A stretch of DNA of 64,000 nucleotides from Salminus brasiliensis. Taxonomy: Eukaryota > Chordata > Actinopteri > Characiformes > Bryconidae. Where the stretch lies: the NCBI RefSeq assembly GCF_030463535.1, contig NC_132893.1:33427691-33491690 (forward strand), in the 5' to 3' direction. Shown piece by piece: positions 9,925-45,277 of the stretch. A program made the position numbers and the translations under genes. Within the stretch, counting starts at the first letter, position 1; each line of letters begins with the position of its first letter. Below the pieces are notes generated by a model that made no database searches, was not told the origin of the DNA, and saw only the letters and a list, made by a program, of their open reading frames with translations.

Positions 9925-9980
9925 CAGCTGAAGGTCATGTGACAGTGGGTCATGTGACCTAAGCTGGTGCCTTTTAAAGG
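9925..9980 (+). promoter_or_regulatory. Promoter of array gene 1: E-box cluster and TATA-like box
   Basis: CAGCTG (9925-9930) is followed by two copies of GTCATGTGAC (9934-9943 and 9949-9958), 15 bp apart, then TTTTAAAG (9972-9979), about 100 bp before the ATG. The same order occurs before every array gene, with TTTATAAAG in most. TCATGTGA is the core read by MITF/TFE/USF-type bHLH factors. Which factor acts here is unknown. This divergent copy has both E-boxes in the full palindromic form. Confidence 0.7.
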
Positions 9981-10079
9981 AGTCACATAGGGCCTGAATG
10001 TATGTCTGCTTAGTGTGTGTTGCATTGGGTGGTGGGTAAAGTGTGTATGCTGTGCTTTTGTTGATACTCAGTTTGAGAC

Positions 10080-12553
10080 ATGGTGTGGTGGAGAAACAGG
10101 TGAGTAGACAAATGTGGGTGACATGGCTGTTTTTAATGGGTGAAGACTGGATTGACATGGTCCTCTTTGTTTTATAGGCTCCATTGCCTCTTCTTGGCAC
10201 TGCTTTTGTGGGACAATGCTAATGGACATGGTGGTAAGACAGTGTGCAAACATTTAGACTGTAACTCAAATCCTTTGGTGTTAAAACCTCTTAACTCATA
10301 CCTCTTTGTTTTCTAGTCTGGCAGAACAGACCTGCTCACCGCTGGAACAGACCTGGTGCCAAAGGCCCTGGAGGTCAGCTGCTCTCTCCTTTCCAGCAGG
10401 ATGTCAGCAGCACTGCAAGTGGACTTGAAACTGCAGCATCTACTTTTGCTGCTACTCAGCCTCTGGCACCAACATCTGGTAGCAGAGGACCTGTAGCAAA
10501 TGTTCCTGGATTCCTAAGGCAGTACACAACATCCAGTGATCAAAATGTGCTAAACCAGTATAATCAGCAGTCTCTGGGAGGCTACATGACTCAATCTTTG
10601 GGGTCTCAGAGCAGTGCAAACCAGCCTGTCCCTGGATTTCAGAGCCAGCTAGTTAATAGACCAGTGTCTCTATCCTTGGGTTTAGCTAGCCAATCTCTTG
10701 CCTCACAGCAGAGCAGCTTGCGGTATGCTTCTCCAAGCCTTGGACTTTCTTCTCCAGTTCAGAGCCTTCCATCTGTGGATGCCCCTAGTATCCAGGCCCA
10801 GCTGTCAAGGCCTGTAAGCTCCTCCTGGAGTTCAGAAAGTGACTCTGCCACAACCTCCCAGCAAGCTGGCTATGGTTCTCAGCCCTCATCTGGTACACTG
10901 TATGGTCAGACTTCTAGCTGGTCTTCCTCTTCACAGGGTCAGAGTGTTCAGACATCAACCCAGTCTGACTCCCTGTACAAGCCTGTGCTCACATCACAGG
11001 GTTCAGCTAGCCAATCTCTTGCCTCACAGCAGAGCAGCTTACGGTATGCTTCTCCAAGCCTTGGACTTTCTTCTCCAGTTCAGAGCCTTCCATCTCGCTA
11101 CAGCCCTGAAACCCTGGCCTCAAGGCCTGCGACTGTGTCCCTGAGTTCAACAAGTCACTCGGCTGCAACATCACCTCAGCAAGATGGCTATGGCACTCAG
11201 GCCTTAGGTAGTACACTGTATGGTCAACCCTCTAGCTGGTCTTCCTCATCACAGGGTCAGGGTGTTCAGACCTCCTCCCAGTATGGGGCCTCCTCAGACA
11301 AGCCTGTGTTTCCCTCACAGGGGCTAAGTTCATACACTGCTCTCCCTCAAACCCCTTCCCAGTCTGTGGATACCCCCTTCAAGCCTGTGTCTCCATTGCA
11401 AGGTACATTGAGCCAGTCTCTTGTCTCGCAGCAGGGCAGCTTGCAGTATTCTTCCAGCTTGGGCACCCCATCTGCTCCTCAGAGCCTTTCCTCTCGCTAT
11501 GTCCCTGGAATCCAGGACCAACTGTCAAGACCTGTGGGCTCCACTTGGAGTTCTACAAGTGACTCTGCCACAACCTCTTGGCAAGATGCCTATGGAGCTC
11601 AGTCCTCAGCTAGTACACTGTATGGTCAACCCTCTAGCTGGTCTTCCTCATCACAGGGTCAGGGTTTTCAGACTTCAACCCAGCCTGATTCCCTGTACAA
11701 GCCTGTGCTCCCATCACTGGGTTTAGTAAGTGCATATACTGCAGGACCTGCTCAATGGTATAGGGTAGATCCCTTTGGCTTCCAGACTGGGCAAGCCAAC
11801 AAGCCCTTGTCTTCATCTCAGGGTTTAGTGAGTCAGGATATCCAGATGGCCTCAGCCAGCTATCCCTCCACATCGCAAGGCCAAAGCACCTCAGGCTCAT
11901 TTGGGTTTGGCTTTCAAAGCCAAAGTGCTCCAGCATCAACGGTAGCCTTGACCCAGAGTGCTGTCCAGCTTTCATCCTTCCAAACATCCAGCAGGTTCCC
12001 CAGTACATCCCTAAATACTGCAGGTCCCTCTGTGTCCCAGCCATTCCAGGTGGCCCAAAGCTCTGTAACCTGGAGATCTCCAAGTGTGTCTTCATCCTTT
12101 AGCCAGACTTCTGGGCCGGTTGCACCTGTAGCTGCCGCCCAACAGTACTCCAGTGATGCGTTGCAAAGCACAGGCTCTTATGCCTCTCTACCAGCTCAAG
12201 CTGCAACCCCCTTGCAGACATCTGCCAACTACCGTCCTGCGTCTCTGAGCAGTACAACCCAGGTGGGAAGCTTTGACCAGTACAGCCCAGCAAGCGGCGT
12301 CTCCTCCAGAGCCTCCACATCTGCTCAAGGCACCCCAACCAACTTTGGACTTGTGCAAAGCTACAGGAGCCAAGCACTTGGTGCCTCTGTCCAGCAGCAA
12401 CCAGCTGTAGACTCCTCCCTCAACCAGCAGACTTCTGAAGCACAAGGTAGCTCCTCAGTTTCTGGTTCTCCAAGCTTGTATAGCTTTGAAAGCTCTAGGT
12501 CTGTCTACAAACCTGCCACCCGGAGAGTCTCAGACAGCTCTGTCAAGCAGTAA
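10080..12553 (+). CDS. Array gene 1: secreted Ser/Gln-rich repeat protein
   Basis: Three coding exons: 10080-10099, 10178-10233 and 10317-12553, joined by GT-AG introns of phase 2 and phase 1, giving 770 residues. Exons 1-2 encode a classic signal peptide (MVWWRNRLHCLFLALLLW, then DNANGHG). The mature part begins with a Trp-rich VWQNRPAHRWNRPG segment, then low-complexity sequence rich in S, Q, A, P, G, T and Y. Internal repeats around SQSLASQQSSLRYASP recur at spacings of 321 and 402 bp (107 and 134 codons). A conserved block AQWYRVDPFGFQ lies near residue 506, and the C-terminus is VYKPATRRVSDSSVKQ. AATAAA follows at 12635-12640. This is the most divergent member of the array. I do not recognise the family. 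The architecture implies export and an extended, disordered or matrix-forming protein; that role is inference. Confidence 0.85.
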
Positions 12554-12851: not shown

Positions 12852-13507
12852 AAGGTGTAGGACCATGGCAGGATGTGTTTGTGAGGGAAGAGCACTAAGG
12901 ACCATGTCCCTGAGTTCAACAAGTAACTTGGCTGCAACATCACCTCAGCAAGATGGCTATGGCTCTCAGGCCTCAGCTAGTACACTGTATGGTCAACCCT
13001 CTAGCTGGTATTCCTCATCACAGGGTCTGGGTGTTCAGACATCTTCCCAGTATGGGGCCTCCTCAGACAGGTCTGTGTTTCCCCCTCACAGGGGCTAAGT
13101 TCATACACTGCTCTCCCTCAAACACCTTCCCAGTCTGAGGATACCCTCTTCAAGCCTGTGTCTCCATTGCAAGGTACATTGAGCCAGTCTCTCGTCTCGC
13201 AGCAGGGCAGCTTGCAATATTCTTCAAGCCGGGGCACCCCATCTGCTGCTCAGAGCCTTTCCTCTCGCTATGTCCCTGGAATCCAGGCCCAACTGTCAAG
13301 ACCTGTGGGCTCATCTTGGAGTTCTACAAGTGACTCTGCCACAACCTCTCAGCAAGATGCCTATGGAGCTCAGTCCTCAGCTAGTACACTGTATGGTCAA
13401 CCCTCATCAGAGTCAGTTTTCAGACTTCAACCCAGTCTGATTCCCTGTACAAGCCTGTACTCCTAAAGTGTAGGACCACGGCAGAATGTTTTTGTGGGAA
13501 GGAAGAG
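12852..13507 (+). pseudogene. Internal exon-3 fragment of a gene 1-like copy, flanked by a direct repeat
   Basis: Bases 12904-13463 match gene 1 exon 3 from about 11136 to 11709. The copy has a 1-bp insertion near 13082 and an internal deletion near 13404, so no continuous frame survives. There is no signal-peptide exon, promoter or C-terminus. The fragment is bounded by two copies of a 40-bp sequence (AAGGTGTAGGACCATGGCAG... at 12852-12893 and 13465-13507). The equivalent place after gene 2 (about 19388-19430) has that sequence once and no insert. It is therefore a gene fragment inserted with a target-like duplication. Confidence 0.85.
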
Positions 13508-13589
13508 CCTACATGTTTCTAAAACCATGCAGCTATGTTAACATTGAATCAATAATTATGCTTTTGTACTAAGACTATTAAATAGCCTG

Positions 13590-14776
13590 TATTTTGAAAA
13601 CACCTAATCAGTGTAGATTCTTAAACACTATGTTTTATCCTCTATTTTGTATTAAAATGTGCATTATTTCAAAATGGGTGTGATCTTGGCCATTAATGTG
13701 TATACAGTGTGCTTATAATCTTATCTTAATCTTGTTTGTTGGGAAACTTATTAAGTATTATAATTAATTGGGAAAGTATTATAATGTATTTGCAACACAT
13801 GCTGTAGTGGAACATTACTACAAGCTTTATGAATTTGTGGTAGCAAGATTCATGTACAGCTTTTGTTTTCATTATTATATTATTGAAAAATATCCATTGT
13901 CTTTCTTAGAATACCAATGAAAAATGTATTAAATAAAATTATTCTATAATGCTAATTAAATAATGTGAGGTCTTGAAAATCCTCTTAACCAATTCAAATA
14001 TATTGAATGAGGTCTGTTAGCCACTGGTGTACCAAATACATAAAAAAACACTGATGGGTGTAATTTTAGTTTTTTAATCTAAATTATTGCTGAGGATTGT
14101 TTAGTAGACTGGATGTAGATGGGGATATGTCCCTATAGACCCTACCCAGTCTTCCTATGATTTTACTTCAGTAAAATATTGTACTTAGATATTGCCTAAG
14201 TGGAATAACTGTACTTTCAGTTAGATATGGGACTTGCGTACTTGTGCCAACTCTGGTTGACGTTAATAAAATATACACAATATATATGTTTTACATATCT
14301 TTATAAATTACTTTTATCTTTATTACTTACCTTTATAAGGACATAAAATAATGTTCATAAAAAATAATTGCATAAAAAACAAGACTACTAAATTGTTATT
14401 TTCAGTCACTGCTACACTGTTGTATTGTACCCTGTAAATTTTAGTTCAAGTCCAGATATGATCAAATGTTTTCAGTCATACTGCACAGATTGATTCTTGT
14501 CCAAATCATTATAAGACAAATATTTAATGTGTGTAATATTTAAACACCTGCTTAAGTAAAATCTACCCGTGAAAAGCTGCAATAGTATTAACTTGATCAG
14601 CCGCAGCTGAACATTGTTTCATGAAGTCATGTGACAGTGGGTCATGTGGGCTAACGGGGTGCTTTATAAAGGAGTCTCATAGGGTTTGGGTGTATGTCTA
14701 CTTAGTTTGTGTTCAGTGGTCTTTTGAGGGTAATGGTATAGGTTGTACTCTAGTTGACACACACAGATTTTGAGAC
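13590..14776 (+). repeat. Array unit 5' flank, copy 1
   Basis: About 1.15 kb upstream of gene 2 that recurs, nearly identical, at 19722-20876 before gene 3 and 25785-26832 before gene 4. These copies define a direct tandem unit of about 6.0 kb (ATG to ATG 6100 and 5956 bp). The shared flank shows that whole gene units, not only coding parts, were duplicated. Confidence 0.9.
14604..14671 (+). promoter_or_regulatory. Promoter of array gene 2
   Basis: CAGCTG (14604-14609), GTCATGTGAC (14626-14635), GTCATGTGGG (14641-14650) and TTTATAAAG (14663-14671), about 105 bp before the ATG. The second E-box has lost the full palindrome kept in gene 1. The following 'GGAGTCTCATAGGGTTTGGG' is shared among units and probably includes the start of transcription. 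Confidence 0.75.
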
Positions 14777-17700
14777 ATGGTGTGGTGGAGGAAAGGGTAA
14801 ATATCCCAGAATGTGATTTATATCGTTAGTCTGTTTGGGTGCTGCTGTGGATTTAAATGGTTCTCTTTGTTTTGTAGCCTCCATTGCCTGTTCTTGGCAT
14901 TGCTTCTGTGGGAAACCGCTAATGGACTTGGTGGTAAGAGTGAGAGAAACCTCTAATATGACTGTAACTAGAATTTAATGTTATTAACCTCATAACTTAT
15001 ACCTTTCTGTTCTCTTCCTAGTCTGGCAGGGTAGAACTGCTAACTTTTGGCAAACTGGAGTTGCCAAAGGTCCTGGAGATCAGTCTCTTTCTCCTGTCCA
15101 TCAAGATTTCAGTAGCCCTGGAACTGAAGCTGCAGTGTATGGTCTGGTTTCTGCTCAGCCTCTGAGTGCTTCTGGTAGCAGAGGGTCTGTTGCAAGTGGT
15201 CCTGGACTCCTAAGGCAGTTCACAACTTCCAGTAATCAAAATGTCCTAAGCCAGTACAATCCCCTTCCCCAGTCTCTGGGTGGCTACACAACTCAATCTT
15301 CAGGGATGTCTAACTATGGTGTATCAAGGTTACCTCTGCTAGCACAGAGCAGCACAAGCCAGGCTGTCCCTGGATTTCAGAGCCAGCTAGTAAACAGACC
15401 AATGTCTTCATCCCAGGGATCAGGGCCTGTGACCTCAACCCTCAGCTTAGCAAGTGACCTTGGAACAACCTCTAGGCAAGACGGCTATGGATTTCAGTCC
15501 TCAGCTGGTACCCTGTCACAGGGTCAGGGTGTTGGAATACCTGCCCCATACCAGCTGGTGTCTCCATCCCAGGGTTCATCTAGCCAGTCTCTCTCCTCAC
15601 AGCAGAGCGGCTTACAGTATGCTTCTCCAGGCCTAGGAGTTGCTTCTCTGCCACAGAGCCTTCAATCCCGCTTTGTCCCTGGAACTCAAACCCAGTCTTC
15701 AGGGCCTGTGAGCTCATCTGTGAGTGTAGCAAGTGGTTTTACCACAAGCTCTCAGCAAGATGGCAATGGTATTCAATCAGGAGCAGGTACACTGTATGGC
15801 CAGCCCTCTAGCTCGTATTCCTCTTCCCAGGGTCAGAGGGTTCAGACACCGACCCAGTATGGGGTGTTGCCAGACAAGCCCCCGCAGGGTTTAGTAGGCT
15901 CATATGCATCTCCCCCTCAAACATTGTCCCTGTCTGCACTGTACCAGCCTGTGTCTCCATCACAGGGTCCAGCTAGCCAGCCTCTCTCCTCACAGCAGAG
16001 CGGCTTACAGTATGCTTCTCCAGGCCTAGGAGTTGCTTCACTGCCACAGAGCCTTCAATCCCGCTTTGTCCCTGGAAGCCAAACCCAGTCCTCAGGGCCT
16101 GTGACCCAAAACCTCAGCTTAGCAAGTGACATTGGAGCAACCTCTAGGCAAGACAGCTATGGATTTCAGTCCTCAGCTGGTGCCCTGTCACAGGGTCAGG
16201 GTGTTGGAATACCTGCCCCATACCAACTGGTGTCTCCATCCCAGGGTTCATCTAGCCAGTCTCTCTCCTCACAGCAGAGCAGCTTGCAGAATGCTTCTCC
16301 TGGCCTAGCAGTTGCTTCACTGCCACAGAGCCTTCAATCCCGCTTTGTCCCTGGAAGCCAAACCCAGTCCTCAGGGCCTGTGATGCAAACCCTCAGCTTA
16401 GCAAGTGACCTTAGAACAACCTCTAGGCAAGACAGCTATGGATTTCAGTCCTCAGCTGGTACCCTGTCACAGGGTCAGGGTGTTGGAATACCTGCCCCAT
16501 ACCAAATGGTGTCTCCATCCCAGGGTTCATCTAGCCAGTCTCTCTCCTCACAGCAGAGCGGCTTGCAGTATGCTTCTCCAGGCCTAGGAGTTTCTTCTCT
16601 GCCACAGAGCCTTCAATCCCGCTTTGTCCCAGGAACTCAAACCCAGTCCTCAGGGCCTGTGACCCAAAACCTCAGCATAGCAAGTGACCTTGGAACAACC
16701 TCTAGGCAAGACAGCTATGGATTTCAGTCCTCAGCTGGTACCCTGTCACAGGGTCAGGGTGTTGGAATACCTGCCCCATACCAGCCTGTGTCTCCATCCC
16801 AGGGTTCATCTAGCCAGTCTCTCTCCTCACAGCAGAGCAGCTCGCAGTATGCTTCTCCAGGCCTAGGAGTTTCTTCTCTGCCACAGAGCCTTCAATCCCG
16901 CTTTGTCCCTGGAAGCCAAACCCAGTCTTCAGGGCCTGTGAGCTCATCTGTGAGTGTAGCAAGTGGTTTTACCACAAGCTCTCAGCAAGATGGCATTGGT
17001 ATTCAATCAGGAGCAGGTACACTGTATGGCCAGCCCACTAGCTCGTATTCCTCTTCCCAGGGTCAGAGGGTTCAGACACCGACCCAGTATGGGGTGTTGC
17101 CAGACAAGCCCCCGCAGGGTTTAGTAGGTTCATATGCATCTCCCCCTCAAACACTGTCCCTGTCTGCACTGTACCAGCCTGTGTCTCCATCCCAGGGTCC
17201 AGCTAGCCAGCCTCTTTCCTCACAGCAGAGCAGCTTGCAGTATGCTTCTCCTAGCCTGGGTCTGCCTCAGAGCCTTGGGTCTCGCTATGCCCCCCAGTCC
17301 TCAAGGCCTGTGACTTCATCCCTTAGTTCAACAAGTGACTCTGCCCCAATGTCTCAGCAAGATGGCTATGGCTTTCAGTCCTCAGCTGGTGCACTTTATG
17401 GCCAGCCCTCTAGCTTGTATTCCCCTTCACAAGGTCAACAGAGTGTTCAGATGTCCACCCAGTATGTGGGGTCACCAGACAGGCCTGTGCTCCCCTCACA
17501 GGGTTTAGTGAGTGCATATACTGCAGGACCTGCTCAGTGGTATAGGATAGATCCTTTTGGATTCCAGGCTGGGCAAACCAACCAACCTTTGTTCCCATCC
17601 CAGGGTTCTGTGGGCCAGGCAGCCTCAAGCAGCTATCCCTCTACATCTCCAAGCCAAAGCACCTCAAGCTCTTTTGGGTTTGGCTTTCAAAGCCGAAGTG

Positions 17701-18329
17701 CTCCAGCTTCAACCATAGCCTTGACCCAGAGTGCTGCCCCGCTTCCATCCTTACAAGCATCCAGCCGGTTCCCCAGTACGTCCCTAAATACTGCAGGTCC
17801 CTCTGCCTCTGTGTCCCAGCCATTCCAGGTGGCCCAAAGCTCTGTAACATGGAGCTCCCCAAGTGCGTCATCCTTTAGCCAGACTTCTGGACAGGCTGCC
17901 CCTGTAGCTGCCACCCAACAGTACTCCAGTGATGCATTGCAAAGCACAGGCTTTTATGGCTCTCTACCCTCTCAAGTTGCAACCCCCTTGCAGACATCTG
18001 CCAACTACCGTCCTGCGTCTCTGAGCAGTACAACCCAGGTGGGAAGCTTTGACCAGTACAGTCCAGCAAGCGGTGTCTCCTCCAGAGCCTCCACATCTGC
18101 CCAAGGCACCCCAACCAACTTTGGACTTGTGCAAAGCTACAGGAGCCAAGCACTTGGTGCCTCTGTCCAGCAGCAACCAGCTGTAGACTCCTCCCTCAGC
18201 CAGCAGACTTCTGAAGCACAAGGTAGCTCCTCAGTTTCTGGTCCTCCAAGCTTGTACAACTTTGAAAGCTCTAGGTCTGTCTACAAACCTGCCACCAGGA
18301 GAGTCTCAGACAGCTCGGTCAAGCAGTAA
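14777..18329 (+). CDS. Array gene 2: longest secreted Ser/Gln-rich repeat protein, modules A-B-A-A-A-B-C
   Basis: Coding exons 14777-14796, 14878-14933 and 15022-18329 give 1127 residues. The signal peptide (MVWWRKGLHCLFLALLLW, then ETANGLG) spans exons 1-2. Exon 3 opens with VWQGRTANFWQTGVAKGPGD, then the DFSSPGTEAAVYGLVSAQ block. It then has four 93-residue A modules (SRQDGYGFQSSAGTLSQGQG type; A-module marks at 15454, 16126, 16405, 16684) and two 131-residue B modules (VQTPTQYGVLPDKPPQG type). Next comes the C block with AQWYRIDPFGFQ, ending in VYKPATRRVSDSSVKQ. No cysteine is seen in the mature part. AATAAA lies at 18403-18408. The 5' flank, N-terminus and modules match genes 3 and 4, but the last 110 residues and 3' UTR match gene 1, so the gene looks chimeric. 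Function unknown. Confidence 0.87.
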
Positions 18330-19718: not shown

Positions 19719-19721
19719 TTT

Positions 19722-20876
19722 TATCCTCTATTTTGTATTAAAATGTGCATTATTTCAAAATGGGTGTGATCTTAGCCATTAATGTGTATACAATGTGCTT
19801 ATAATCTTATCTTAATCTTGTGTTTGTTGGGAAATTTATTAAGTATTATAAGTAAGTAATTGGGAAAGTATTATAATGTATTTGCCACACATGCTGTAGT
19901 GGAACATCACTTCAAGCTTTATGAATTTGTGGTAGCAAGATTCATGTACAGCTCACACTGTTTTCATTATTATATTATTGGAAAAATATCCATTGTCTTT
20001 CTTAGAATACCTACGAAAAATGTATTACATAAACATGCTAATTATAGAATGTGAGGTCTTGAAAATCCTCTTAACCAATACAAATATATTGAATGAGGTC
20101 TGTTAGCCACCGGTGTACCAAATATATAAAAAAAAAACACTGATGGGTGTAATTTTAGTTTTTTAATCTAAATTATTGCTGAGGATTGTTTAGTAGACTG
20201 GATGTTGATGGGGACATATCCTTATAGACCCTACCCAGTCTGATCCCATGATTTTACTTCGGTAAAATGTTGAACTTAGATATTGCCTAAGTGGAATAAC
20301 TGTACTTTCAGTTAGATATTGGACTTGTGTACTTGTGCCACCTCTGGTTGACGTTAATAAAATATACAAAATATATATGTTTTACATATCTTTATAAATT
20401 ACTTTTATCTTTATTACTTACCTTTATCAGGACATAAAATAATGTTCATAAAAAAATTAATTGCATAAAAAACAAAACTACTAAATTGCTATTTTCAGTC
20501 ACTGCTACACTGTTGTATTGTACCCTGTAAATTTTAGTTCAAGTCCAGATATGATCAAATGTTTTCAGTCATACACAGATTGATTCTTGTCCAAATCATT
20601 ATAAGACAAATATTTAATGTGTGTAATATTTAAACACCTGCTTAAGTAAAATCTACCCGTGAAAAGCTGCAATAGTATTAACTTGATCAGCCGCAGCTGA
20701 ACATTGTTTCATTAAGTCATGTGACAGTGGGTCATGTGGGCTAACGGGGTGCTTTATAAAGGAGTCTCATAGGGTTTGGGTGTATGTCTACTTAGTTTGT
20801 GTTCAGTGGTCTTTTGAGGGTAATGGTATAGGTTGTACTCTAGTTGACACACACAGATTTTGAGACATGGTGTGGT
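19722..20876 (+). repeat. Array unit 5' flank, copy 2
   Basis: Nearly identical to 13590-14776 and 25785-26832; see the first copy. Confidence 0.9.
20694..20760 (+). promoter_or_regulatory. Promoter of array gene 3
   Basis: CAGCTG (20694-20699), GTCATGTGAC (20716-20725), GTCATGTGGG (20731-20740), TATAAA (20755-20760). Spacing is identical to gene 2. Confidence 0.75.
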
Positions 20877-23800
20877 GGAGGAAAGGGTAAATATCCCAGA
20901 AGTTGATTTATATAGTCAGTCTGTTTGGGTGCTGCTGTGGATTTAAATGGTTCTCTTTGTTTTGTAGCCTCCATTGCCTGTTCTTGGCATTGCTTCTGTG
21001 GGAAACTGCTAATGGACTTGGTGGTAAGAGTGAGAGAAACCTCTAATATGACTGTAACTAGAATTTAATGTTATTAACCTCATAACTTATACCTTTCTGT
21101 TCTCTTCCTAGTCTGGCAGGGTAGAACTGCTAACTTTTGGCAAACTGGAGTTGCCAAAGGTCCTGGAGATCAGTCTGTTTCTCCTGTCCAGCAAGATTTC
21201 AGTAGCCCTGGAACTGAAGCTGCAGTGTATGGTCTGGTTTCTGCTCAGCCTCTGAGTGCTTCTGGTAGCAGAGGGTCTGTTGCAAGTGGTCCTGGACTCC
21301 TAAGGCAGTTCACAACCTCCAGTGATCAAAATGTCCTAAGCCAGTACAATCCCCTTCCCCAGTCTCTGGTTGGCTACACAACTCAATCTTCAGGGATGTC
21401 TAACTATGGTGTATCAAGGTTACCTCTGCTAGCACAGAGCAGCACAAGCCAGGCTGTCCCTGGATTTCAGAGCCAGCTAGTAAACAGACCAATGTCTTCA
21501 TCCCAGGGATCAGGGCCTGTGACCTCAACCCTCAGCTTAGCAAGTGACCTTGGAACAACCTCTAGGCAAGATGGCTATGGATTTCAGTCCTCAGCTGGTA
21601 CCCTGTCACAGGGTCAGGGTGTTGGAATACCTGCCCCATACCAGCCGGTGTCTCCATCCCAGGGTTCACCTAGCCAGTCTCTCTCCTCACAGCAGAGCGG
21701 CTTGCAGTATGCTTCTCCAGGCCTAGGAGTTTCTTCTCTGCCACAGAGCCTTCAATCCCGCTTTGTCCCTGGAACTCAAACCCAGTCTTCAGGGCCTGTG
21801 AGCTCATCTGTGAGTGTAGCAAGTGGTTTTACCACAAGCTCTCAGCAAGATGGCATTGGTATTCAATCAGGAGCAGGTACACTGTATGGCCAGCCCTCTA
21901 GCTCGTATTCCTCTTCCCAGGGTCAGAGGGTTCAGACACCGACCCAGTATGGGGTGTTGCCAGACAAGCCCCCGCAGGGTTTAGTAGGTTCATATGCATC
22001 TCCCCCTCAAACACTGTCCCTGTCTGCACTGTACCAGCCTGTGTCTCCATCACAGGGTCCAGCTAGCCAGCCTCTCTCCTCACAGCAGAGCAGCTTGCAG
22101 TATGCTTCTCCAGGCCAAGGAGTTGCTTCATTGCCACAGAGCCTTCAATCCCGCTTTGTCCCTGGAAGCCAAACCCAGTCCTCAGGGCCTGTGACCCAAA
22201 ACCTCACCTTAGCAAGTGACATTGGAACAACCTCTAGGCAAGACGGCTATGGATTTCAGTCCTCAGCTGGTACCCTGTCACAGGGTCAGGGTGTTGGAAT
22301 ACCTGCCCCATACCAGCCTGTGTCTCCATCCCAGGGTTCATCTAGCCAGTCTCTCTCCTCACAGCAGAGCGGCTTACAGTATGCTCCTCCAGGCCAAGGA
22401 GTTGCTTCATTGCCACAGAGCCTTCAATCCCGCTTTGTCCCTGGAAGCCAAACCCAGTCCTCAGGGCCTGTGACGCAAACCCTCAGCTTAGCAAGTGACC
22501 TTAGAACAACCTCTAGGCAAGACGGCTATGGATTTCAGTCCTCAGCTGGTGCCCTGTCACAGGGTCAGGGTGTTGGAATACCTGCCCCATACCAACTGGT
22601 GTCTCCATCCCAGGGTTCATCTAGCCAGTCTCTCTCCTCACAGCAGAGCGGCTTGCAGTATGCTTCTCCAGGCCTAGCAGTTGCTTCACTGCCACAGAGC
22701 CTTCAATCCCGCTTTGTCCCTGGAAGCCAAACCCAGTCTTCAGGGCCTGTGAGCTCATCTGTGAGTGTAGCAAGTGGTTTTACCACAAGCTCTCAGCAAG
22801 GTGGCATTGGTATTCAATCAGGAGCAGGTACACTGTATGGCCAGCCCTCTAGCTCGTATTCCTCTTCCCAGGGTCAGAGGGTTCAGACGCCGACCCAGTA
22901 TGGGGTGTTGCCAGACAAGCCCCCGCAGGGTTTAGTAGGTTCATATGCATCTCCCCCTCAAACACTGTCCCTGTCTGCACTGTACCAGCCTGTGTCTCCA
23001 TCCCAGGGTCCAGCTAGCCAGCCTCTTTCCTCACAGCAGAGCAGCTTGCAGTATGCTTCTCCTAGCCTGGGTCTGCCTCAGAGCCTTGGGTCTCGCTATG
23101 TCCCCCAGTTCTCAAGGCCGGTGACCTCATCCCTAAGTTCAACAAGTGGTGACTCCCCAACGTCTCAGCAAGACGGTTATGGATTTCAACCCTCAGCAGG
23201 TACACTGTATAGCCAGTCCTCTAGCTTGTATTCCCCTTCACAAGGTCAACAGAGTGTTCAGATGTCCAGCCAGTATGTGGGGTCACAAGACAGGCCTGTG
23301 CTCCCCTCACAGGGTTTAGTGAGTGCATATACTGCAGGACCTGCTCAGTGGTATAGGGTAGATCCTTCTGGATTCCAGGCTGGGCAAACCAACCAGCCTT
23401 TGTTCCCGTCCCAGGGTTCTGTGGGCCAGGCAGCCTCAAGCAGCTATCCCTCTACATCTCAAAGCCAAAGCACCTCAAGCTCTTTTGGGTTTGGCTTTCA
23501 AAGCCAAAGTGCTCCAGCTTCAACCGTAGCCTTGACCCAGAGTGCTGCCCAGCTTCCAACCTTCCAAACAGCCAGCCAGTTTCCCAGTACATCCCTAAAT
23601 ACTGCAGGTCCTTCTGCCTCTGTGTCCCAGCCATTCCAGGTGGCCCAAAGCTCTGTAACCTGGAGATCCCCAAGTGCATCTTCATCCTCTAGCCAGAGTT
23701 CTTCTGGACAGGCTGCCCCTGTAGCTGCCACCCAACAGTACTCCAGTGATTCATTGCAAAGCACAGGCTTTTATGGCTCTCTACCCTCTCAAGTTGCAAC

Positions 23801-29800: not shown

Positions 29801-29869
29801 CAGAACCTGAATGAGCCTGTCTACAAACCTGCCACCCGGAGAGGCCAAGACAGCTCTGTCAAGCAGTAA
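26833..29869 (+). CDS. Array gene 4: secreted Ser/Gln-rich repeat protein, modules A-B-A-B-C
   Basis: Coding exons 26833-26852, 26934-26989 and 27078-29869 give 955 residues. The signal peptide and N-terminal block match genes 2 and 3. Two A modules (marks at 27510 and 28182) alternate with two B modules before the C block (AQWYRVDPSGFQ). It ends like gene 3 (LNEPVYKPATRRGQDSSVKQ). AATAAA is at 29961-29966. Nucleotide identity to gene 3 is very high across exons, introns and both flanks, so duplication or gene conversion is recent. Function unknown; the protein is predicted to be exported and largely disordered. Confidence 0.87.
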
Positions 29870-31083: not shown

Positions 31084-32586
31084 AACTGTACTGTAGCGTA
31101 TAAAACTACAAAAAATACAAGAACTTGACCCCTCAAAGCTGAACAAGGTTGGAGAACCAGACACTGAGGAGCTGTCTTGTGCTTCAGAAGTCTGCTGGCT
31201 AAAGGAGGAGTCTACAGCAGGTTGCTGCTGGACAGAGGCTCCAAGTGCTTGGTTGCTGTAACTCTGCAGAAGTCCAAAGTTTGTTGGTGTGCTCTGAGCT
31301 GAAGTAGACGCTCTGGATGGGACAGAGCTTACTGGACTGTACTGGTCAAAGGTTCCCACCTGGGTTGTACTCCTCGGAGACACAGGGCGGTAGTTGGCAG
31401 ATGTCTGTGAGGTAGTTGCAACTTGAGACGGCAGAGGAGCATAAGAGCCTGTGCTTTGCAATGAATCACTGGAGTACTGTTGGGTGGCAGCTACAGGGAT
31501 AGTCTGCCCAGAAGAGCTCTGGCTAAAGGATGAAGACACACTTGGGGATCTCCAGGTTACAGAGCTTTGAGCCACTTGGAATTGCTGGGAAACAGAGGCA
31601 CCTGCAGTACTTAGGAATGTACTGGGGAACCGGCTGGATGTTTGGAAGGATGGAAGCTGGGCAGCACTCTGAGTCAAGGCTACAGTTGAAGCTGGAGCAC
31701 TTTGGCTTTGAAAGCCAAACCCAAATGAGCCTTGAGGCTGCCTGGCCCACAGAACCCTGGGATGGGAACCAAGGTTGGTTGGTTTGCCCAGCCTGGAATC
31801 CAAAAGGATCTACCCTATACCACTGAGCAGGGCCTGCAGTATATGCACTCACTAAACCCTGTGAGGGGAGCACAGGCCTGTCTGGTGACCCCACATACTG
31901 GGTGGACATCTGAACACCCTGTGTAGAAGAATCCAAGGTAGAGGGTTGGCTATACATTGTACCTGCTGAGGACTGAAATCCATAGCTGTCTTGCTGAGAC
32001 GTTGGGGCAGAGCCACCTGTTGAACTCACAAATGAGCTCACAGGCCCTGAGGACTGGGTTTGGGTTTCAGGGACATAGCGGGATGGAAAGCTCTGTGGCA
32101 GAGAAGAAACTCCTAGGCCTGGAGAAGCATGCTGCAAGCTGCTCTGCTGTGAGGAGAGAGACTGGCTAGATGAATCCAGAGACGGCTGGTATTGGGTAGG
32201 CATTCCAACACCCTGACCCTGAAATCCATAGATGTCTTGCCTAGAGGTTGTTCCAAGGTCACTTGCTAAGCTAGGGGTTGAGGTCACAGGCCCTGATCCC
32301 TGGGATGAAGACACTGGTCTGTTTACTAGCTGGCTCTGAAATCCAGGGACAGCCTGGCTTGTGCCGCTCTGTGCTAGCAGAGGTAACCTTGATACACCAT
32401 AGTTAGACGTCCCTGAAGATTGAGCCATGTAGCCACCCTGAGACTGGGGAAGGGGATTGTACTGGCTTAGGACATTTTGATCACTGGAGGTTGTGAACTG
32501 CCTTAGGAGTCCAGGACCACTTGCAACAGACCCTCTGCTACCAGAAGCACTCAGAGGCTGAGCAGAAACCAGACCATACACTGCAC
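31084..32586 (-). pseudogene. Array gene 5: truncated, frameshifted repeat-protein relic
   Basis: Only exon 3 survives, read on the minus strand from VYGLVSAQ at about 32586. Exons 1-2, both introns, the TATA box and the E-boxes are missing. The exon start abuts a SINE (32590-32800), beyond which far-upstream flank resumes. A deletion of about 38 bp near 31730, relative to gene 6 (34575-34613), shifts the frame inside the SYPSTSQSQ segment; two overlapping frames cover the rest. The C-terminus is also lost: after FSFEG the sequence jumps into 3' UTR-like AGTTCTTGTATTTTT and ends in unrelated residues, so the conserved VYKPATRRG tail is absent. The residual A module is short. A secreted product is not expected. 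Confidence 0.9.
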
Positions 32587-32589
32587 AAT

Positions 32590-32800
32590 AACAGATAACA
32601 CCTCTACCTGCCATTGAGTTACAACACCACCATGTGGGAGACCAGGGTTTGATTCCGAGTCTGGTATGCTGCGCTACACCAATAAGAGTCCTTGGGTAAG
32701 ACTCCTAACACTACATTGGCCCTCCTCTGTAATACGAGTAACCTTGTAAGTCGCTCTGGATAAGAGCGTCAGCTAAATGCCATAAATGTAAATGTAAATG
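32590..32800 (+). mobile_element. tRNA-like SINE with L2-like tail, at the broken 5' end of gene 5
   Basis: Contains a B-box-like GACCAGGGTTTGATTCCG, the CACCAATAAGAGTCCTTGGG and GTAAGACTCCTAAC blocks, and a 3' end GTAAGTCGCTCTGGATAAG...AAATGTAAATGTAAATG. It occupies the place where the promoter, exon 1 and exon 2 of gene 5 should be. Confidence 0.75.
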
Positions 32801-33881: not shown

Positions 33882-36238
33882 TTACTGCTTGACTGAGCTG
33901 TCTTGGCCTCTCCGGGTGGCAGGTTTGTAGACAGGCTCATTCAGGTTCCGAGTGAAGCTGTAGCTGGTTGACCTAGACCCTTCAAAGCTATACAAGCCTG
34001 GAGAACCAGAAACTGAGGAGCTACCTTGTGCTTCAGATGTCTGCTGGCTGAAGGAGTCTACAGCAGGTTGCTGCTGGACAGAGCCTCCAAGTGCTTGGCT
34101 GCTGTAGCTTTGCACAAGTCCAAAGTTAACTGGGGCACCTTGGGCAGATGTGGAGGCTCTGGATGGGACATAGCTTACTGGACTGTACTGGTCAAAGCCT
34201 CCCACCTGGGTTGTACTGCTTGGAGACACAGGGGGGTAGTTGGCAGACATCTGCGAGGGGGTTGCAACTTGAGATGACAGAGGGGCATAAGAGCCTGTGC
34301 TTTGCAATGAATCACTGGAGTACTGTTGGGTGGCAGCTACAGGAGCAACAGGCCCAGAAGAACTCTGGCTGAAGGATGAAGATACACTTGGAGATCTCCA
34401 GGTTACAGAGCTTTGGGCCACTTGGAATGGCTGGGACACAGAGGCACCTACAGTACTTAGGGACGTACTAGGGATCCGGCTGGATGTTTGGAAGGATGGA
34501 GGCTGGGCAGCACTCTGGGTCAAGGCTACGGTTGAAGCTGGAGCACTTTGGCTTTGAAAGCCAAACCCAAAAGAACCTGGGGTGCTTTGGCTTTGAGATG
34601 TAGAGGGATAGCTGCTTGAGGCTGCCTGGCCCATAGAACCCTGGAATGGGAACAAAGGTTGGTTGGTTTGCCCAGCCTGGAATCCAAAAGGATCTACCCT
34701 ATACCACTGAGCAGGGCCTGCAGTATATGCACTCACTAAACCCTGTGAGGGGAGCACAGGCCTGTCTGGTGACCCCACATACTGGGTGGACATCTGAACA
34801 CTCTGTTGACCCTGTGAAGGGGAATACAAGCTAGAGGGCTGGCTATACAGTGCACCAGCTGAGGACTGAAATCCATAGCCGTCTTGCTGAGATGTTGGGG
34901 CAGCATCACTTGTTGAACTAAGGGATGAGGTCACAGGCCTTGAGGACTGGGGGGCATAGCGAGACCCAAGGCTCTGAGTTAGACCCAGGCTAGGAGAAGT
35001 ATACTGCAGGCTGCTCTGCTGTGAAGAAAGAGGCTGGCTAGCTGATCCCTGGGATGGAGACACAGGCTGGTACAGTGCAGACAGGGACTGTGTTTGAGGG
35101 GGAGACGCATATGAACCTATTAAACCCTGTGGGGGCTTGTCTGGCAACACCCCATACTGGGTCGGTGTCTGAACCCTCTGACCCTGGGAAGAGGAATACG
35201 AGCTAGAGGGCTGGCCATACAGTGTACCTGCTGCTGATTGAATACCAATGCCATCTTGCTGAGAGCTTGTGGTAGAATCATGCACTATAATCATAGATGA
35301 GCTCACCAGCCCTGAGGACTGGGTTTGGGTTCCAGGGACATAGCGGGATGAAAGGCTCTGTGGCAGAGAAGAAACTCCTAGGCCTGGAGAAGCATACTGC
35401 AAGCTGCTCTGCTGTGAGGAAAGAGACTGGCTAGATGAACCCTGGGATGGAGACACAGGCTGGTATGGGGCAGGTATTCCAACACCCTGACCCTGTGACA
35501 GGGTACCAGCTGAGGACTGAAATCCATAGCTGTCTTGCCTAGAGGTTATTCCAAGGTCACTTGCTAAACTAGGGGTTGAGGTCACAGGCCCTGTTCCCCA
35601 GGATGAAGACACTGGTCTGTTTACTAGCTGGCTCTGAAATCCAGGGACAGCCTGGCTTGTGCCGCTCTGCGCTAGCAGAGGTAGCCTTGATACACCATAG
35701 TTAGAAGTCCCAGAAGATTGAGCAGTGTAGCCACCCTGAGACTGGGGAAGGGGATTGTACTGGTTTAGGACATTTTGATCACTGGAGGTTGTGAACTGCC
35801 TTAGGAATCCAGGAACACTTGCAACAGACCCTCTGCTACCAGAAGCACTCAGAGGCTGAGCAGAAACCAGACCATACACTGCAGCTTCAGTTCCAGGGCT
35901 ACTGAAATCTTGCTGGACAGGAGAAACAGACTGATCTCCAGGACCTTTGGCAACACCACTTTGCCAAAGGTTAGCAGTTATACCCTGCCAGACTAGGAAG
36001 AGAACAGAAAGGTCTAAAGTTATGAGGTAAATAACATTAAATTCTAGTTACAGTCATATTAGAGGTTTCTCTCACTCTTACCACCAAGTCCATTAGCAGT
36101 TTCCCACAGAAGCAATGCCAAGAACAGGCAATGGAGGCTACAAAACAAAGAGAACCATTTAAATCCACAGCAGCTCCCAAACAGACTGACTATATAAATC
36201 ACATTCTGGGATATTTACCCTTTCCTCCACCACACCAT
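33882..36238 (-). CDS. Array gene 6: secreted Ser/Gln-rich repeat protein, modules A-B-C
   Basis: Coding exons on the minus strand: 36219-36238, 36082-36137 and 33882-35992, giving 728 residues. The signal peptide is the family form (MVWWRKGLHCLFLALLLW). The mature start reads VWQGITANLWQSGVAKGPGD, with Ile where gene 2 has Arg. One A module, one B module (with a distinctive SSMIIVHDSTTSSQQ entry) and the C block (AQWYRVDPFGFQ) follow. The tail is NLNEPVYKPATRRGQDSSVKQ. This is the minimal full architecture in the array. Its TATA box carries a substitution (TATAAT for TATAAA), so expression may be weaker; that is inference. Confidence 0.86.
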
Positions 36239-36342: not shown

Positions 36343-36409
36343 ATTATAAAGCACCCCGTTAGCCCACATGACCCACTGTCACATGACTTCATGAAACAAT
36401 GTTCAGCTG
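36343..36409 (-). promoter_or_regulatory. Promoter of array gene 6 (variant TATA)
   Basis: Read on the minus strand: CAGCTG (36404-36409), GTCATGTGAC (36378-36387), GTCATGTGGG (about 36363-36372), then TTTATAATGG. Other copies have TTTATAAAGG at this place. Confidence 0.72.
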
Positions 36410-36419
36410 CGGCTGATTA

Positions 36420-37781: not shown

Positions 37782-40426
37782 TTACTGCTTGACAGAGCTG
37801 TCTTGGCCTCTCCGGGTGGCAGGTTTGTAGACAGGCTCATTCAGGTTCCAATCAAAACTGTAGCTGGTTGACCCAGACCTTTCAAAGCTATACAAGCCTG
37901 GAGAACCAGAAACTGAGGAGCTGCCTTGTGCTTCAGAAGTCTGCTGGCTGAAGGAGGAGTCTACAGCAGGTTGCTGCTGGACAGAGCCTCCAAGTGCTTG
38001 GCTGCTGTAGCTTTGCACAAGTCCAAAGTTAACTGGGGCGCCTTGGGCAGATGTGGAGGCTCTGGATGGGACAGAGCTTACTGGACTGTACTGGTCAAAG
38101 CTTCCCACCTGGGTTGTACTGCTCAGAGAAACAGGGCGGTAGTTGGCAGACATCTGCGAGAGGGTTGCAACTTGAGATGGTAGAGGGGCATAAGAGCCTG
38201 TGCTTTGCAATGCATCACTGGAGTACGGTTGGGTGGCAGCTACAGGAGCAACAGGCCCAGAAGAACTCTGGCTAAAGGATGAAGATACACTTGGAGATCT
38301 CCAGGTCACAGAGCTTTGGGCCACTTGGAATGGCTGGGACACAGAGGCAGCGGGACCTACAGTATTTAGGGATGTACTGGGGAACCGGCTGGATGTTTGG
38401 AAGGATGGAGGCTGGGCAGCACTCTGGGTCAAGGCTACGGTTGAAGCTGGAGCACTTTGGCTTTGAAAGCCAAACCCAAAAGAACCTGGGGTGCTTTGGC
38501 TTTGAGATGTAGAGGGATAGCTGCTTGAGGCTGCCTGGCCCATAGAACCCTGGAATGGGAACAAAGGTTGGTTGGTTTGCCCAGCCTGGAATCCAAAAGG
38601 ATCTACCCTATACCACTGAGCAGGTCCTGCAGTATATGCACTCACTAAACCCTGTGAGGGGAGCACAGGCCTGTCTGGTGACCCCACATACTGGGTGGAC
38701 ATCTGAACACTCTGTCGACCCTGTGAAGGGGAATACAAGCTAGAGGGCTGGCTATACAGTGCACCAGCTGAGGACTGAAATCCATGGCCGTCTTGCTGAG
38801 ATGTTGGGGCAGCATCACTTGTTGAACTCAGGGATAAGGTCACAGGCCTTGAGGACTGGGGGGCATAGCGAGACCCAAGGCTCTGAGTCAGACCCAGGCT
38901 AGGAGAAGCATACTGCAAGCTGCTCTGCTGTGAGGAAAGAGGCTGGCTAGCTGATCCCTGGGATGGAGACACAGGCTGGTACAGTGCAGACAGGGACTGT
39001 GTTTGAGGGGGAGACGCATATGAACCTATTAAACCCTGTGGGGGCTTGTCTGGCAACACCCCATACTGGGTCGGTGTCTGAACCCTCTGACCCTGGGAAG
39101 AGGAATACGAGCTAGAGGGCTGGCCATACAGTGTACCTGCTGCTGATTGAATACCAATGCCATCTTGCTGAGAGCTTGTGGTAGAATCACGCACTATAAT
39201 CATAGATGAGCTCACCAGCCCTGAGGACTGGGTTTGGGTTCCAGGGACATAGCGGGATGAAAGGCTCTGTGGCACAGAAGAAACTCCAAGGCCTGGAGAA
39301 GCATACTGCAAGCTGCTCTGCTGTGAGGAGAGAGACTGGCTAGATGAACCCTGGGATGGAGACACAGGCTGGTATGGGGCAGGTATTCCAACACCCTGAC
39401 CCTGTGACAGGGTACCAGCTGAGGACTGAAATCCATAGCTGTCTTGCCTAGAGGTTGTTCCAAGGTCACTTGCTAAGCTGAGGGTTTGGGTCACAGGGCC
39501 TGAGGACTGGGTTTGGCTTCCAGGGACATACCGGGATTGAAGGCTCTGTGGCACAGAAGAAACTCCTAGACCTGGAGAAGCATACTGCAAGCTGCTCTGC
39601 TGTGAGGAGAGAGACTGGCTAGATGAACCCTGGGATGGAGACACTGGCTGGTATGGGGCAGGTATTCCAACACCCTGACCCTGTGACAGGGTACCAGCTG
39701 AGGACTGAAATCCATAGCCATCTTGCCTAGAGGTTGTTCCAAGGTCACTTGCTAAGCTAGGGGTTGAGGTCACAGGCCCTGATCCCTGGGATGAAGACAC
39801 TGGTCTGTTTACTAGCTGGCTCTGAAATCCAGGGACAGCCTGGCTTGTGCTGCTCTGCGCTAGCAGAGGTAGCCTTGATACACCATAGTTAGAAGTCCCA
39901 GAAGATTGAGCAGTGTAGCCATCCTGAGACTGGGGAAGGGGATTGTACTGGTTTAGGACATTTTGATCACTGGAGGTTGTGAACTGCCTTAGGAATCCAG
40001 GAACACTTGCAACAGACCCTCTGCTACCAGAAGCACTCAGAGGCTGAGCAGAAACCAGACCATACACTACAGCTTCAGTTCCAGGGCTACTGAAATCTTG
40101 CTGGACAGGAGAAACAGACTGATCTCCAGGACCTTTGGCAACACCACTTTGCCAAAGGTTAGCAGCTCTACCCTGCCAGACTAAGAAGAGAACAGAAAGG
40201 TATAAAGTTATGAGGTTAATAACATTAAATTCTAGTTACAGTCATATTAGAGGTTTCTCTCACTCTTACCACCAAGTCCATTAGCAGTTTCCCACAGAAG
40301 CAATGCCAAGAACAGGCAATGGAGGCTACAAAACAAAGAGAACCATTTAAATCCACAGCAGCTCCCAAACAGACTGACTATATAAATCACATTCTGGGAT
40401 ATTTACCCTTTCCTCCACCACACCAT
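37782..40426 (-). CDS. Array gene 7: secreted Ser/Gln-rich repeat protein, modules A-A-B-C
   Basis: Minus-strand coding exons 40407-40426, 40270-40325 and 37782-40180 give 824 residues. Signal peptide and intron phases are as in the family. Two A modules (marks at 39748 and 39469), one B module with the SSMIIVRDSTTSSQQ entry shared with gene 6, and the C block (AQWYRVDPFGFQ) precede the NEPVYKPATRRGQDSSVKQ tail. It exceeds gene 6 by 96 residues, one A module plus small indels. AATAAA is at 37716-37721 on the minus strand. It is divergently arranged with gene 8. Function unknown. Confidence 0.87.
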
Positions 40427-40532: not shown

Positions 40533-40599
40533 TTTATAAAGCACCCCGTTAGCCCACATGACGCACTGTCACATGACTTCATGAAACAATGTTCAGCTG
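40533..40599 (-). promoter_or_regulatory. Promoter of array gene 7
   Basis: Minus strand: CAGCTG (40594-40599), GTCATGTGAC (40568-40577) and TATAAA (40533-40538). The second E-box survives as GTCATGTGGG. Confidence 0.74.
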
Positions 40600-42473: not shown

Positions 42474-42540
42474 CAGCTGAACATTGTTTCATGAAGTCAT
42501 GTGACAGTGGGTCATGTGGGCTAACGGGGTGCTTTATAAA
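42474..42540 (+). promoter_or_regulatory. Promoter of array gene 8
   Basis: CAGCTG (42474-42479), GTCATGTGAC (42496-42505), GTCATGTGGG (42511-42520), TATAAA (42535-42540). It is intact although the gene it drives is broken. Confidence 0.74.
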
Positions 42541-42656
42541 GGAGTCTCATAGGGTTTGGGTGTATGTCTACTTAGTTTGTGTTCAGTGGTCCTTTGAGGG
42601 TAATGGTATAGGTTGTGCTCTAGTTGACACACACAGATTTTGAGACATGGTGTGGT

Positions 42657-45277
42657 GGAGGAAAGGGTAAATATCCCAGAATGTGATTTATATAGTCAGT
42701 CTGTTTGGGTGCTGCTGTGGATTTAAATGGTTCTCTTTGTTTTGTAGCCTCCATTGCCTGTGTTTGGCATTGCTTCTATGGGAAACCGCTAATGGACTTG
42801 GTGGTAAGAGTGAGAGAAACCTCTAATATGACTGTAACTAGAATTTAATGTTATTAACCTCATAACTTATACCTTTCTGTTCTCTTCCTAGTCTGGCAGG
42901 GTAGAACTGCTAACTTTTGGCAAACTGGAGTTGCCAAAGGTCCTGGAGATCAGGCGGGTGATTCACGCTTAAAGACATTTGCGTTACTAAAACTATACAT
43001 CAGCATGACAAGTGAGGCCACTCCATGTGTCTGAAGTCACTGTCATGGACCATCGTGTTGGCCCCAATTGGGACTGGTGTACTTTGTTTGAACTGAAGTG
43101 ATATGGAGGGGATGCTGATAGGGTCGGACGGAGCGGCCTTCTCTCTGTGTGGGTAGAGGGGATGCTGATAGGGTCGGACAAAGCGGCCTTCTCTCTGTGT
43201 GGGTAACTCCCTAACCTGCAGCTGCCTCGCACACACATAGAGAACGCTACACTGTCCAGCTTTGAGAAAATACAGAACATAGTCAAGGTCAAGCATGATG
43301 GTGGAGTCAGACACGTACTAACATGTGCCATCTTGCATATTCACATAGACTAATCTGTAGAAACGCCTCATCGGCAGGTTTCACGTCATTTGGGGTATAA
43401 ACGTGGAGTCAGATGAGAACGGGGTCAGAACTTTGCTTTGGGATGGTTGATACACTGTCTTTAATGCATTTGTTCTCCTGGATCCAGCATTCTTAAATAA
43501 ATACTTTGGTTTGCTTCTAACTTCACTCCACTCGTCTGCGACTCTTTCCACAAAACGAACACGCAAGGTGTTGCGCCCCGGAAGAGGGGTGGGGTACGGG
43601 CAACACTATGTAGACATTTTTCTACACCAGCAAGATTTCAGTAGCCCTGGAACTGAAGCTGCAGTGTATGGTCTGGTTTCTGCTCAGCCTCTGAGTGCTT
43701 CTGGTAGCAGAGGGTCTGTTGCAAGTGTTCCTGGATTCCTAAGGCAGTTCACAACCTCCAGTGATCAAAATGTCCTAAACCAGTACAATCCCCTTCCCCA
43801 GTCTCAGGGTGGCTACATGGTTCAAACTTCAGGGATGTCTAACTATGGTGTATCAAGGTTACCTCTGCTAGCACAGAACGGCACAAGCCAGGCTGTCCCT
43901 GGATTTCAGAGCCAGCTAGTAAACAGACCAGTGTCTTCATCCTGGGGATCAGGGCCTGTGACCTCAACCCCTAGCTTAGCAAGTGACCTTGGAACAACCT
44001 CTAGGCAAGATGGCTATGGATTTCAGTCCTCAGCTGGTTCCCTGTCACAGGGTCAGGGTGTTGGAATACCTGCCCCATACCAGCCTGTGTCTCCATCCCA
44101 GGGTTCATCTAGCCAGTCTCTCTCCTCACAGCAGAGCAGCTTGCAGTATGCTTCTCCAGGCCTAGGAGTTTCTTCTGTGCCACAGAGCTTTCCATCCCGC
44201 TATGTCCCTGGAACCCAAACCCAGTCCTTGGGGCCTGTGAGCTCATTTGTGAGTTCAACAGGTGTGACTGCCCCAACGTCTCAGCAAGACAGCTATGGAT
44301 TTCAGTCCTCAGCAGGTGCACTGTATAGCCAGCCCTCTAGCTTGTATTCCCCTTCACAGGGTCAACAGAGTGTTCAGACGTCCACCCAGTATGTGGGGTC
44401 ACCAGACAGGCCTGTGTTACCCTCACAGGGTTTAGTGAGTGCATATACTGCAGGACCTGCTCAGTGGTATAGGGTAGATCCTTTTGGATTCCAGGCTGGG
44501 CAAACCAACCAGCCTTTGTTCCCATCCCAGGGTTCTGTGGGCCAGGCAGCCTCAAGCAACTATCCCTCTACTTCTCAAAGCCAAAGCACCCCAGGCTCTT
44601 TTGGGTTTGGCTTTCAAAGCCAAAGTGCTCCAGCTTCAAATGTAGCCTTGACCCAGAGTGCTGCCCAGCTTCCGTCCTTCCAAACATCCAGCCGGTTTCC
44701 CAGTACATCCCTAAATACTGCAGGTCCCTCTGTGTCCCAGCCATTCCAGGTGGCTCAAAGCTCTGTAACCTGGAGATCCCCAAGTGTGTCTTCATCCTTT
44801 AGCCAGAGTTCTTCTGGGCAGGCTGCCGCCCAGCCGTACTCTAGTGATGCATTGCAAAGCACAGGCTCTTATGCCCCTCTGCTGTCTCAAGTTGCAAGCC
44901 CCTCACAGACGTCTGCCAACTACCGCCCTGTGTCTCCAAGCAGTACAACCCAGGTGGGAGGCTTTGACCAGTACAGTCCAGTAAGCTCTGTGCCATCCAG
45001 AACCTCCACATCTGCCCAAGGCGCCCCAGTTAACTTTGGACTTGTGCAAAGCTACAGCAGCCAAGCCCTTGGAGCCTCTTCCCAGCAGCAACCTGCTGTA
45101 GACTCCTTCAGCCAGCAGACGTCTGAAGCACAAGGTAGCTCCTCTGTTTCTGGTTCTCCAGGCTTGTATAGCTTTGAGGGGTCTAGAGCGACCAGCTACA
45201 GCTTTGCCTGGAATGTGAATGAGCCTGTCTACAAACCTGCCACCCGGAGAGGCCAAGACAGCTCTGTCAAGCAGTAA
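42657..45277 (+). pseudogene. Array gene 8: repeat-protein gene (A-C) split by a solo LTR in exon 3
   Basis: Exons 1 (42657-42676) and 2 (42748-42803) and the start of exon 3 (42892-42953) are normal. At 42954 a 673-bp LTR-type insert replaces about 14 bp, and the family frame resumes at 43627 (CCAGCAAGATTTCAG). From the native ATG the frame ends at TGA 43032-43034, giving 72 residues: the signal peptide plus a short tail. Downstream an open frame runs from an ATG inside the insert (43511) through one A module and the C block, with no B module, to VYKPATRRGQDSSVKQ at 45277. That 588-residue frame lacks a signal peptide. The 3' UTR lacks a clear AATAAA and has a T-run at 45347-45363. It is either a pseudogene or an LTR-driven cytosolic variant. 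Confidence 0.85.
42954..43626 (+). mobile_element. Solo LTR-like retroviral/LTR-retrotransposon insertion
   Basis: Non-family sequence inside exon 3 of gene 8 with LTR organisation: a tandem duplication of about 50 bp in the U3-like part (about 43105-43205, GATGCTGATAGGGTCGGAC twice), TATAAA at 43396-43401 and AATAAA at 43496-43501 exactly 100 bp further, then a GT/CT-rich U5-like part. No internal gag/pol/env sequence is present. Exact ends and target duplication could not be fixed; about 14 bp of exon were lost. Confidence 0.72.

Follow-up and report, generated by a model that had tools for sequence, protein, structure and literature searches.

A tandem array of genes for predicted secreted Ser/Gln-rich repeat proteins in Salminus brasiliensis belongs to a larger family with relatives in other characiform fishes

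Lineage-restricted secreted repeat proteins are, as a general kind, already known. Teleost choriogenins and other zona pellucida (ZP) proteins of the egg envelope carry Gln-rich N-terminal repeats and serve in the egg coat, while SCPP genes, which encode P/Q-rich mineral-matrix proteins, have introns that are all in phase 0. Semenogelin genes are built differently again, with the signal peptide in exon 1, the body in exon 2 and an untranslated exon 3. In carp, a "fibroin-like substance" of the fertilisation envelope is, by the title of the report, a component of the adhesive coat (Chang and Huang 2002; cited in PMC9513835, PMC4944945 and PMC12383683), and it is by this title that we liken it to the family described here. 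Zebrafish neuromasts are reported to express a different secreted protein named Mucin-5AC (PMC11765562). A literature search on the family, its automatic names, egg coats and MITF boxes returned nothing in which we could identify this family or its tissue, a weak negative for a family that is nameless. As far as that search reaches, the family is undescribed in print.

The window, that is the whole stretch of 64,000 nucleotides analysed here, corresponds to C16:33427691-33491690 of the 1.07 Gb S. brasiliensis genome. Eight related units lie at 9.9-45.3 kb of it, with A to D and H on the plus strand and E to G on the minus strand; six are intact (A, B, C, D, F and G), two are broken, and there is one additional fragment. 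All six intact units comprise a 20-nt exon, a 56-nt exon and a long exon of 2111-3308 nt, separated by introns of 78-81 and 83-89 nt with GT/AG borders, in phase 2 and then phase 1, and each holds a single uninterrupted frame. On the plus strand, unit A (10080..12553; exons 10080-10099, 10178-10233 and 10317-12553), the most divergent of the six, encodes a precursor of 770 aa, followed by unit B, a mosaic (14777..18329; exons 14777-14796, 14878-14933 and 15022-18329; 1127 aa), unit C (20867..24182; exons 20867-20886, 20968-21023 and 21112-24182; 1048 aa) and unit D (26833..29869; exons 26833-26852, 26934-26989 and 27078-29869; 955 aa). On the minus strand are units F (33882..36238; exons 36238-36219, 36137-36082 and 35992-33882; 728 aa) and G (37782..40426; exons 40426-40407, 40325-40270 and 40180-37782; 824 aa). 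Exon 1 of B, C and D recurs at a spacing of ~6 kb, and the DNA of B and C is 96-97% identical to that of D across ~2.5 kb. Together with frames of 728-1127 codons, this identity argues that the frames are not due to chance.

The precursors of the intact units begin with MVWWR..LHCLFLALLLW..ANG followed by (L/H)GVWQ, VWQ falling at residue 26 in all six, and all six also carry AQWYR[VI]DP and a terminal YKPATRR..DSSVKQ. We infer secretion of these proteins from a predicted signal peptide, called by eye from a hydrophobic core and small residues ahead of the presumed cut; inside it lies the sole Cys of each precursor. After residue 25, the six proteins contain 23.8-25.1% Ser, 12.6-14.6% Gln, 7.7-10.6% Gly, 7.9-9.1% Pro, 3.8-4.4% Tyr, 0.5-1.1% Lys and no Cys; Ser plus Thr amount to 30-33%, and N-glycosylation motifs number 0-3 per protein. 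An enrichment of FUS-like [GS]Y[GS] triplets, considered for unit G, was rejected (5 against a shuffle mean of 3.7). We counted six module starts in B, five in C, four in D, three in G and two in F, at steps of 93 or 131 aa, which indicates that length varies by entire modules; the two module starts of unit A are 107 aa apart.

The two broken units differ in what they have lost. Unit E (31060..32704, minus strand) is a pseudogene from which the core promoter and exons 1 and 2 are absent; the start of exon 3 also has no counterpart and the frame-shifted body is split between two frames, so that the unit has no signal peptide. A sequence that we take to be SINE-like is found at ~32586-32810, where the core promoter and exons 1-2 of unit E would be expected. 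Unit H (42647..45277, plus strand), a probable pseudogene, keeps exons 42647-42666 and 42748-42803, and its promoter is retained with an exact match to the twin E-box module. Its exon 3, starting at 42892, is disrupted: 673 bp of unrelated sequence (42954-43626) replace 14 nt early in the exon, the spliced frame reaches a stop after 72 codons, and the body past the insertion is open to 45277. A further degraded copy, present as an exon-3 fragment, lies at ~12907..13405 on the plus strand. The initial annotation had described eight units that share one exon plan and all encode a signal peptide. The plan (20 nt, 56 nt and a giant exon 3, phases 2 then 1) and the predicted signal peptide are indeed seen in the six intact units, but not in the broken ones, since E has no signal peptide and the spliced frame of H ends prematurely. 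Its other descriptions agree with our results in every intact unit, namely the conserved ends (VWQ, AQWYR[VI]DP and YKPATRR..DSSVKQ) and a body without cysteine, and the rapid length change that it proposed matches the differing module numbers.

The family extends beyond the array, which forms one of its branches. A whole-genome protein search returned the array and one match on C5, and using the C5 protein as query added C28. The single C5 gene encodes 1115 aa, with an exon 2 of 56 nt and an exon 1 that measures 14 nt when translation is taken to start at the first of two in-frame ATGs; two tandem genes (C28a and C28b) at C28:26657457-26666755 (L031/L032) encode 1383 and 1042 aa, with an exon 1 of 8 nt and an exon 2 of 56 nt. 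Thus, the length of exon 2 and the intron phases are the same at the three loci and the length of exon 1 varies. The split signal-peptide region (exon 1 plus the 56-nt exon 2) followed by VW[QN] is found in the six intact units, C5, C28a and C28b. A QWYR-type motif and the C block are common to the six intact units and C5; the motif reads HWYR in C28a and is lost in C28b. In addition, C5, C28a and C28b do not have the conserved C-terminal tail and carry one mature Cys each, which together with the loss of QWYR in C28b indicates that these features are not essential everywhere. The C5-protein search of the genome left weak residual matches on C8 (a simple repeat) and C1 (E 0.02, seven stops). 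Finally, a 32-place exon-2 pattern (up to three mismatches) searched genome-wide matched nine places, all belonging to the family (six on C16, two on C28 and one on C5), compared to none for the reversed control; unit A, with four mismatches by inspection, was missed.

Each intact gene has a compact promoter made of E-boxes (CAGCTGAA; GTCAYRTG) and a TATA-like box, the latter being different in unit F from that of the other units. The twin E-box modules are located at 9936..9956 (A), 14628..14648 (B), 20718..20738 (C), 26684..26704 (D) and 42498..42518 (H) on the plus strand, and at 36365..36385 (F) and 40555..40575 (G) on the minus strand. The array units have twin boxes near the TATA-like box and C5 and C28 have one clear box. 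The core promoters of C16, C5 and C28 align over CAGCTGAA, the GTCAYRTG box and the TATA-like box, even though C5 has diverged from the array by 0.89-1.04 at synonymous sites of the C block. Searching the genome for the promoter module gave 15 matches, against six for the reversed control; seven were exact and were all array promoters (A, B, C, D, F, G and H), and the other eight lay elsewhere with two mismatches. A looser pattern, which fails to pick up A, F, C5 and C28, gave six matches in the whole genome, five in the array (B, C, D, G and H) and one on C2, and none for the control; in the ~0.9 kb read at the C2 match, we saw no family gene. We also rejected, on a weak negative, a promoter module common to ZP genes, as the regular expression, which misses one of eight family promoters (unit F), had no match at 30 ZP loci scanned to ~1.5 kb either side of the ZP exons (shuffle mean 1.0), beyond which ZP promoters may lie.

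Protein searches revealed ten distinct relatives: five in Astyanax mexicanus, two in Prochilodus magdalenae, one in Metynnis hypsauchen and two in unlabelled ENA entries. The three named species, which account for eight of the ten, are all Characiformes. The searches require common 5-residue words and cover a share of fish proteomes, so that relatives in other fishes may have escaped them; they returned at least two (8000 candidates scored), four (319 candidates) and ten matches (1622 candidates), the last with a composite query and E up to 10 allowed, its weakest match being 1.7e-7. The Astyanax relatives (P0001, P0003, P0004, P0005 and P0008) bear the automatic names mucin-5AC-like, mucin-19-like, chitinase-like PB1E7.04c and nuclear pore complex DDB_G0274915, which we read as low-complexity artefacts. 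As in the intact array units, a homologous signal peptide followed by GVWQ is present in all five Astyanax models, which, predictions though they are, independently supports the join of exons 1, 2 and 3. These proteins also share QWYR[VIF]DP and the C block with the array; the tail is shorter and diverged in P0001 and P0003-P0005 and of the window type in P0008.

The proteins of Prochilodus (P0002 and P0006) and Metynnis (P0009) belong instead with C5 and C28 in a dispersed subfamily, their C block being 38-50% identical to C5/C28 and 58-60% identical between the two genera. No array-type member for either genus was among the matches of the three protein searches, which does not imply a real absence. 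In a tree of 17 C-block rows, which omits P0003 and P0004 because they nearly duplicate P0001, support of 100/100 separates the array type (the six window units plus P0001, P0005 and P0008) from the dispersed type (C5, C28a, C28b, Prochilodus, Metynnis and two unlabelled proteins, the latter grouped by similarity with Prochilodus/Metynnis). C5 and C28b are flagged for long branches, C28b for its composition too, and the six window units cluster at just 76/75 support. Since the two types are separated across genera, the duplication behind them is probably older than the divergence of these fish lineages. In the window species the array subfamily has been amplified; Astyanax, too, has several forms of it.

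The dN/dS values, which are point estimates without a significance test, lie at 0.32-0.70 for the C block in all 21 pairs. For the N block they were computed in 15 of 21 pairs (unit B dropped out): the nine pairs with A or C5 gave 0.52-0.68, and of the six close pairs three gave 0-0.63, C-F and C-G gave 1.61 and 1.93 on very few changes, and F-G was undefined. On these estimates, the family proteins look constrained and fast-evolving. Unit B has a promoter 99.6% identical to that of C and, over columns 1-600 of the C-block alignment, is 90-98% identical to C and 80-93% to A. Near the 3' end the order is reversed: approximately the final 350 bp of its coding sequence, together with the start of the 3' flank, match A at 95-99% and C at 77-88%, and farther downstream its likeness to both drops. 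With a C/D-like 5' part and an A-like end, unit B is an A/C-type mosaic from recombination between neighbours. Units duplicate, recombine and vary in module number, the C-D and F-G pairs being almost identical, and the frame and the C block are retained.

We compared 14 sequences with Pfam (exon 3 of A, B, C and F, the C5 protein and nine of the P proteins, a set that excluded D, G, C28 and P0004), and found no credible match to family proteins in Pfam, NCBIfam or PDB. We took the remaining weak hits as low-complexity chance: UL141 in one of 14 (E 0.0004, below its own cut-off, no stretch passing alone), Bag6_BAGS in one of 14 (E 0.073), and two PDB matches to a hypothetical membrane protein (E 0.012 and 0.014). 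With no VWD, CysD or cystine-knot Pfam domain in any of the 14 and no mature Cys in the six intact units, the array proteins are not gel-forming mucins (MUC5AC, MUC19) by descent. The zebrafish lateral-line Mucin-5AC is reported to be defined by CysD domains (PMC11765562), which were found in none of our 14 scanned proteins. The ZP domain (PF00100) was likewise absent from all 14, and none of 82 ZP matches in the genome fell at the array, C5 or C28 loci; the Gln-rich repeats and egg-coat role of choriogenins are to be taken as analogy only. The same genome holds tandem arrays of ZP-domain genes at C9:37.92-37.94 Mb, C9:38.62-38.64 Mb and C1:70.78-70.84 Mb. Membership of the SCPP genes was rejected too, because the intron phases of the six intact units, 2 then 1, depart from the all-phase-0 rule. 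The absence of a known domain, as initially annotated, stands, and profile searches found no match to a well-described family. Calling the family unrecognised was right in this respect, but public databases already list relatives whose automatic names mislead. Similarly, the description as a tandem array is correct for the clustered units and incomplete for the family, three more genes of which are at C5 and C28.

The flanks were scanned through 92 of 102 listed right and left window frames and all 95 listed frames of L013 and L010. To the right of the array we found a phospholipase A2 exon (46793-47029, minus strand) and AMPK beta-subunit exons (55204-55398 and 59636-59863, minus strand), as well as a Tc1/mariner transposase frame (Sleeping Beauty-type HTH and DDE_3) of 378 codons stop to stop (47768-48904, plus strand). 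To the left, outside the window, lies a CBM21-domain frame, presumably PPP1R3-like (L010:5110-6075). The phospholipase A2, AMPK beta and CBM21 neighbours are useful synteny anchors. The window also contains a long degenerate GGTTAG-like tandem repeat tract at 53714-54524.

Our best guess for the family product is a component of the extracellular matrix, which may belong to the egg surface. More fully, we think it probable that the array represents the expanded branch of a family of secreted proteins of low complexity, so far found in Characiformes only, that would form an extracellular gel or coat, with the egg surface as the first-ranked site. The proteins would be exported in large amounts from one cell type and would act as flexible, largely disordered polymers, being free of mature Cys, poor in Lys and rich in Ser and Gln with about 4% Tyr; disorder is proposed because of composition only, and a flexible polymer or gel because of composition and repeats. 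Such polymers may self-associate through their repeats and the conserved W/Y motif, while their glutamines may be available for crosslinks to lysines in partner proteins, and they would form the gel or coat. Placing it at the egg surface, as adhesive or outer-envelope material, is a guess by analogy with fish coat and adhesive proteins; the lack of the promoter module at the 30 ZP loci speaks against it, but weakly. A bolder version, in which a structural family specific to characiforms, and without detected relatives in other groups, makes a silk-like coat, the strength or stickiness of which is tuned by copy and module number, is offered tentatively and seems to us rather doubtful.

An epithelial or sensory gel would also be extracellular and differs from our preferred explanation in site and chemistry: skin or gut mucus, or a cupula-like matrix, would be built from S/T-rich O-glycosylated mucin-like polymers and not be an egg coat. 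The Ser plus Thr content of the intact units, the NCBI names "mucin-5AC-like" and "mucin-19-like" and the neuromast expression of the different zebrafish protein are consistent with such a gel, but the proteins have neither mature Cys nor, in the 14 scanned, any of the mucin domains, including the CysD domains by which the zebrafish protein is defined, and we consider it unlikely. The boxes GTCATGTGAC / GTCACATGAC resemble the E-box of MITF/TFE factors, which bind E-boxes of this type, and this likeness, with paired boxes close to the TATA-like box of the array units and a single clear box at each of C5 and C28, keeps among the candidates a role in which MiT/TFE factors drive genes for a matrix in the lumen of a pigment-cell or lysosome-related organelle. 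That role is improbable, as widespread factors such as USF bind such E-boxes as well and no organelle-targeting region stood out. Equally improbable is that these are coagulum proteins of the seminal fluid or reproductive tract, functionally like the Gln-rich, repeated and crosslinked mammalian semenogelins: a Gln-rich, Cys-free mature protein, repeated modules and fast evolution would fit, but the semenogelin gene plan is unlike that of the array. Very improbable, lastly, is a decaying non-functional repeat array in which long frames persist since the units are young. Of the eight units two are indeed broken, as is the additional fragment, and C-D and F-G are almost identical; however, C-block dN/dS is below 1 between old copies and between loci, E-boxes and splice sites are retained in the six intact units, C5 and C28, and homologous models exist in three other genera.

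In addition to the locus itself, these data illustrate how low complexity leads to borrowed names, by which fast-evolving structural proteins can be lost in annotation. The signature described here, namely the 56-nt signal exon, VW[QN], the QWYR motif, the C block and the E-box/TATA promoter, lets the family be found in other fish genomes. If these proteins do belong to the egg coat, the family would make it possible to approach egg adhesiveness, which varies among fish species, at the level of genes.
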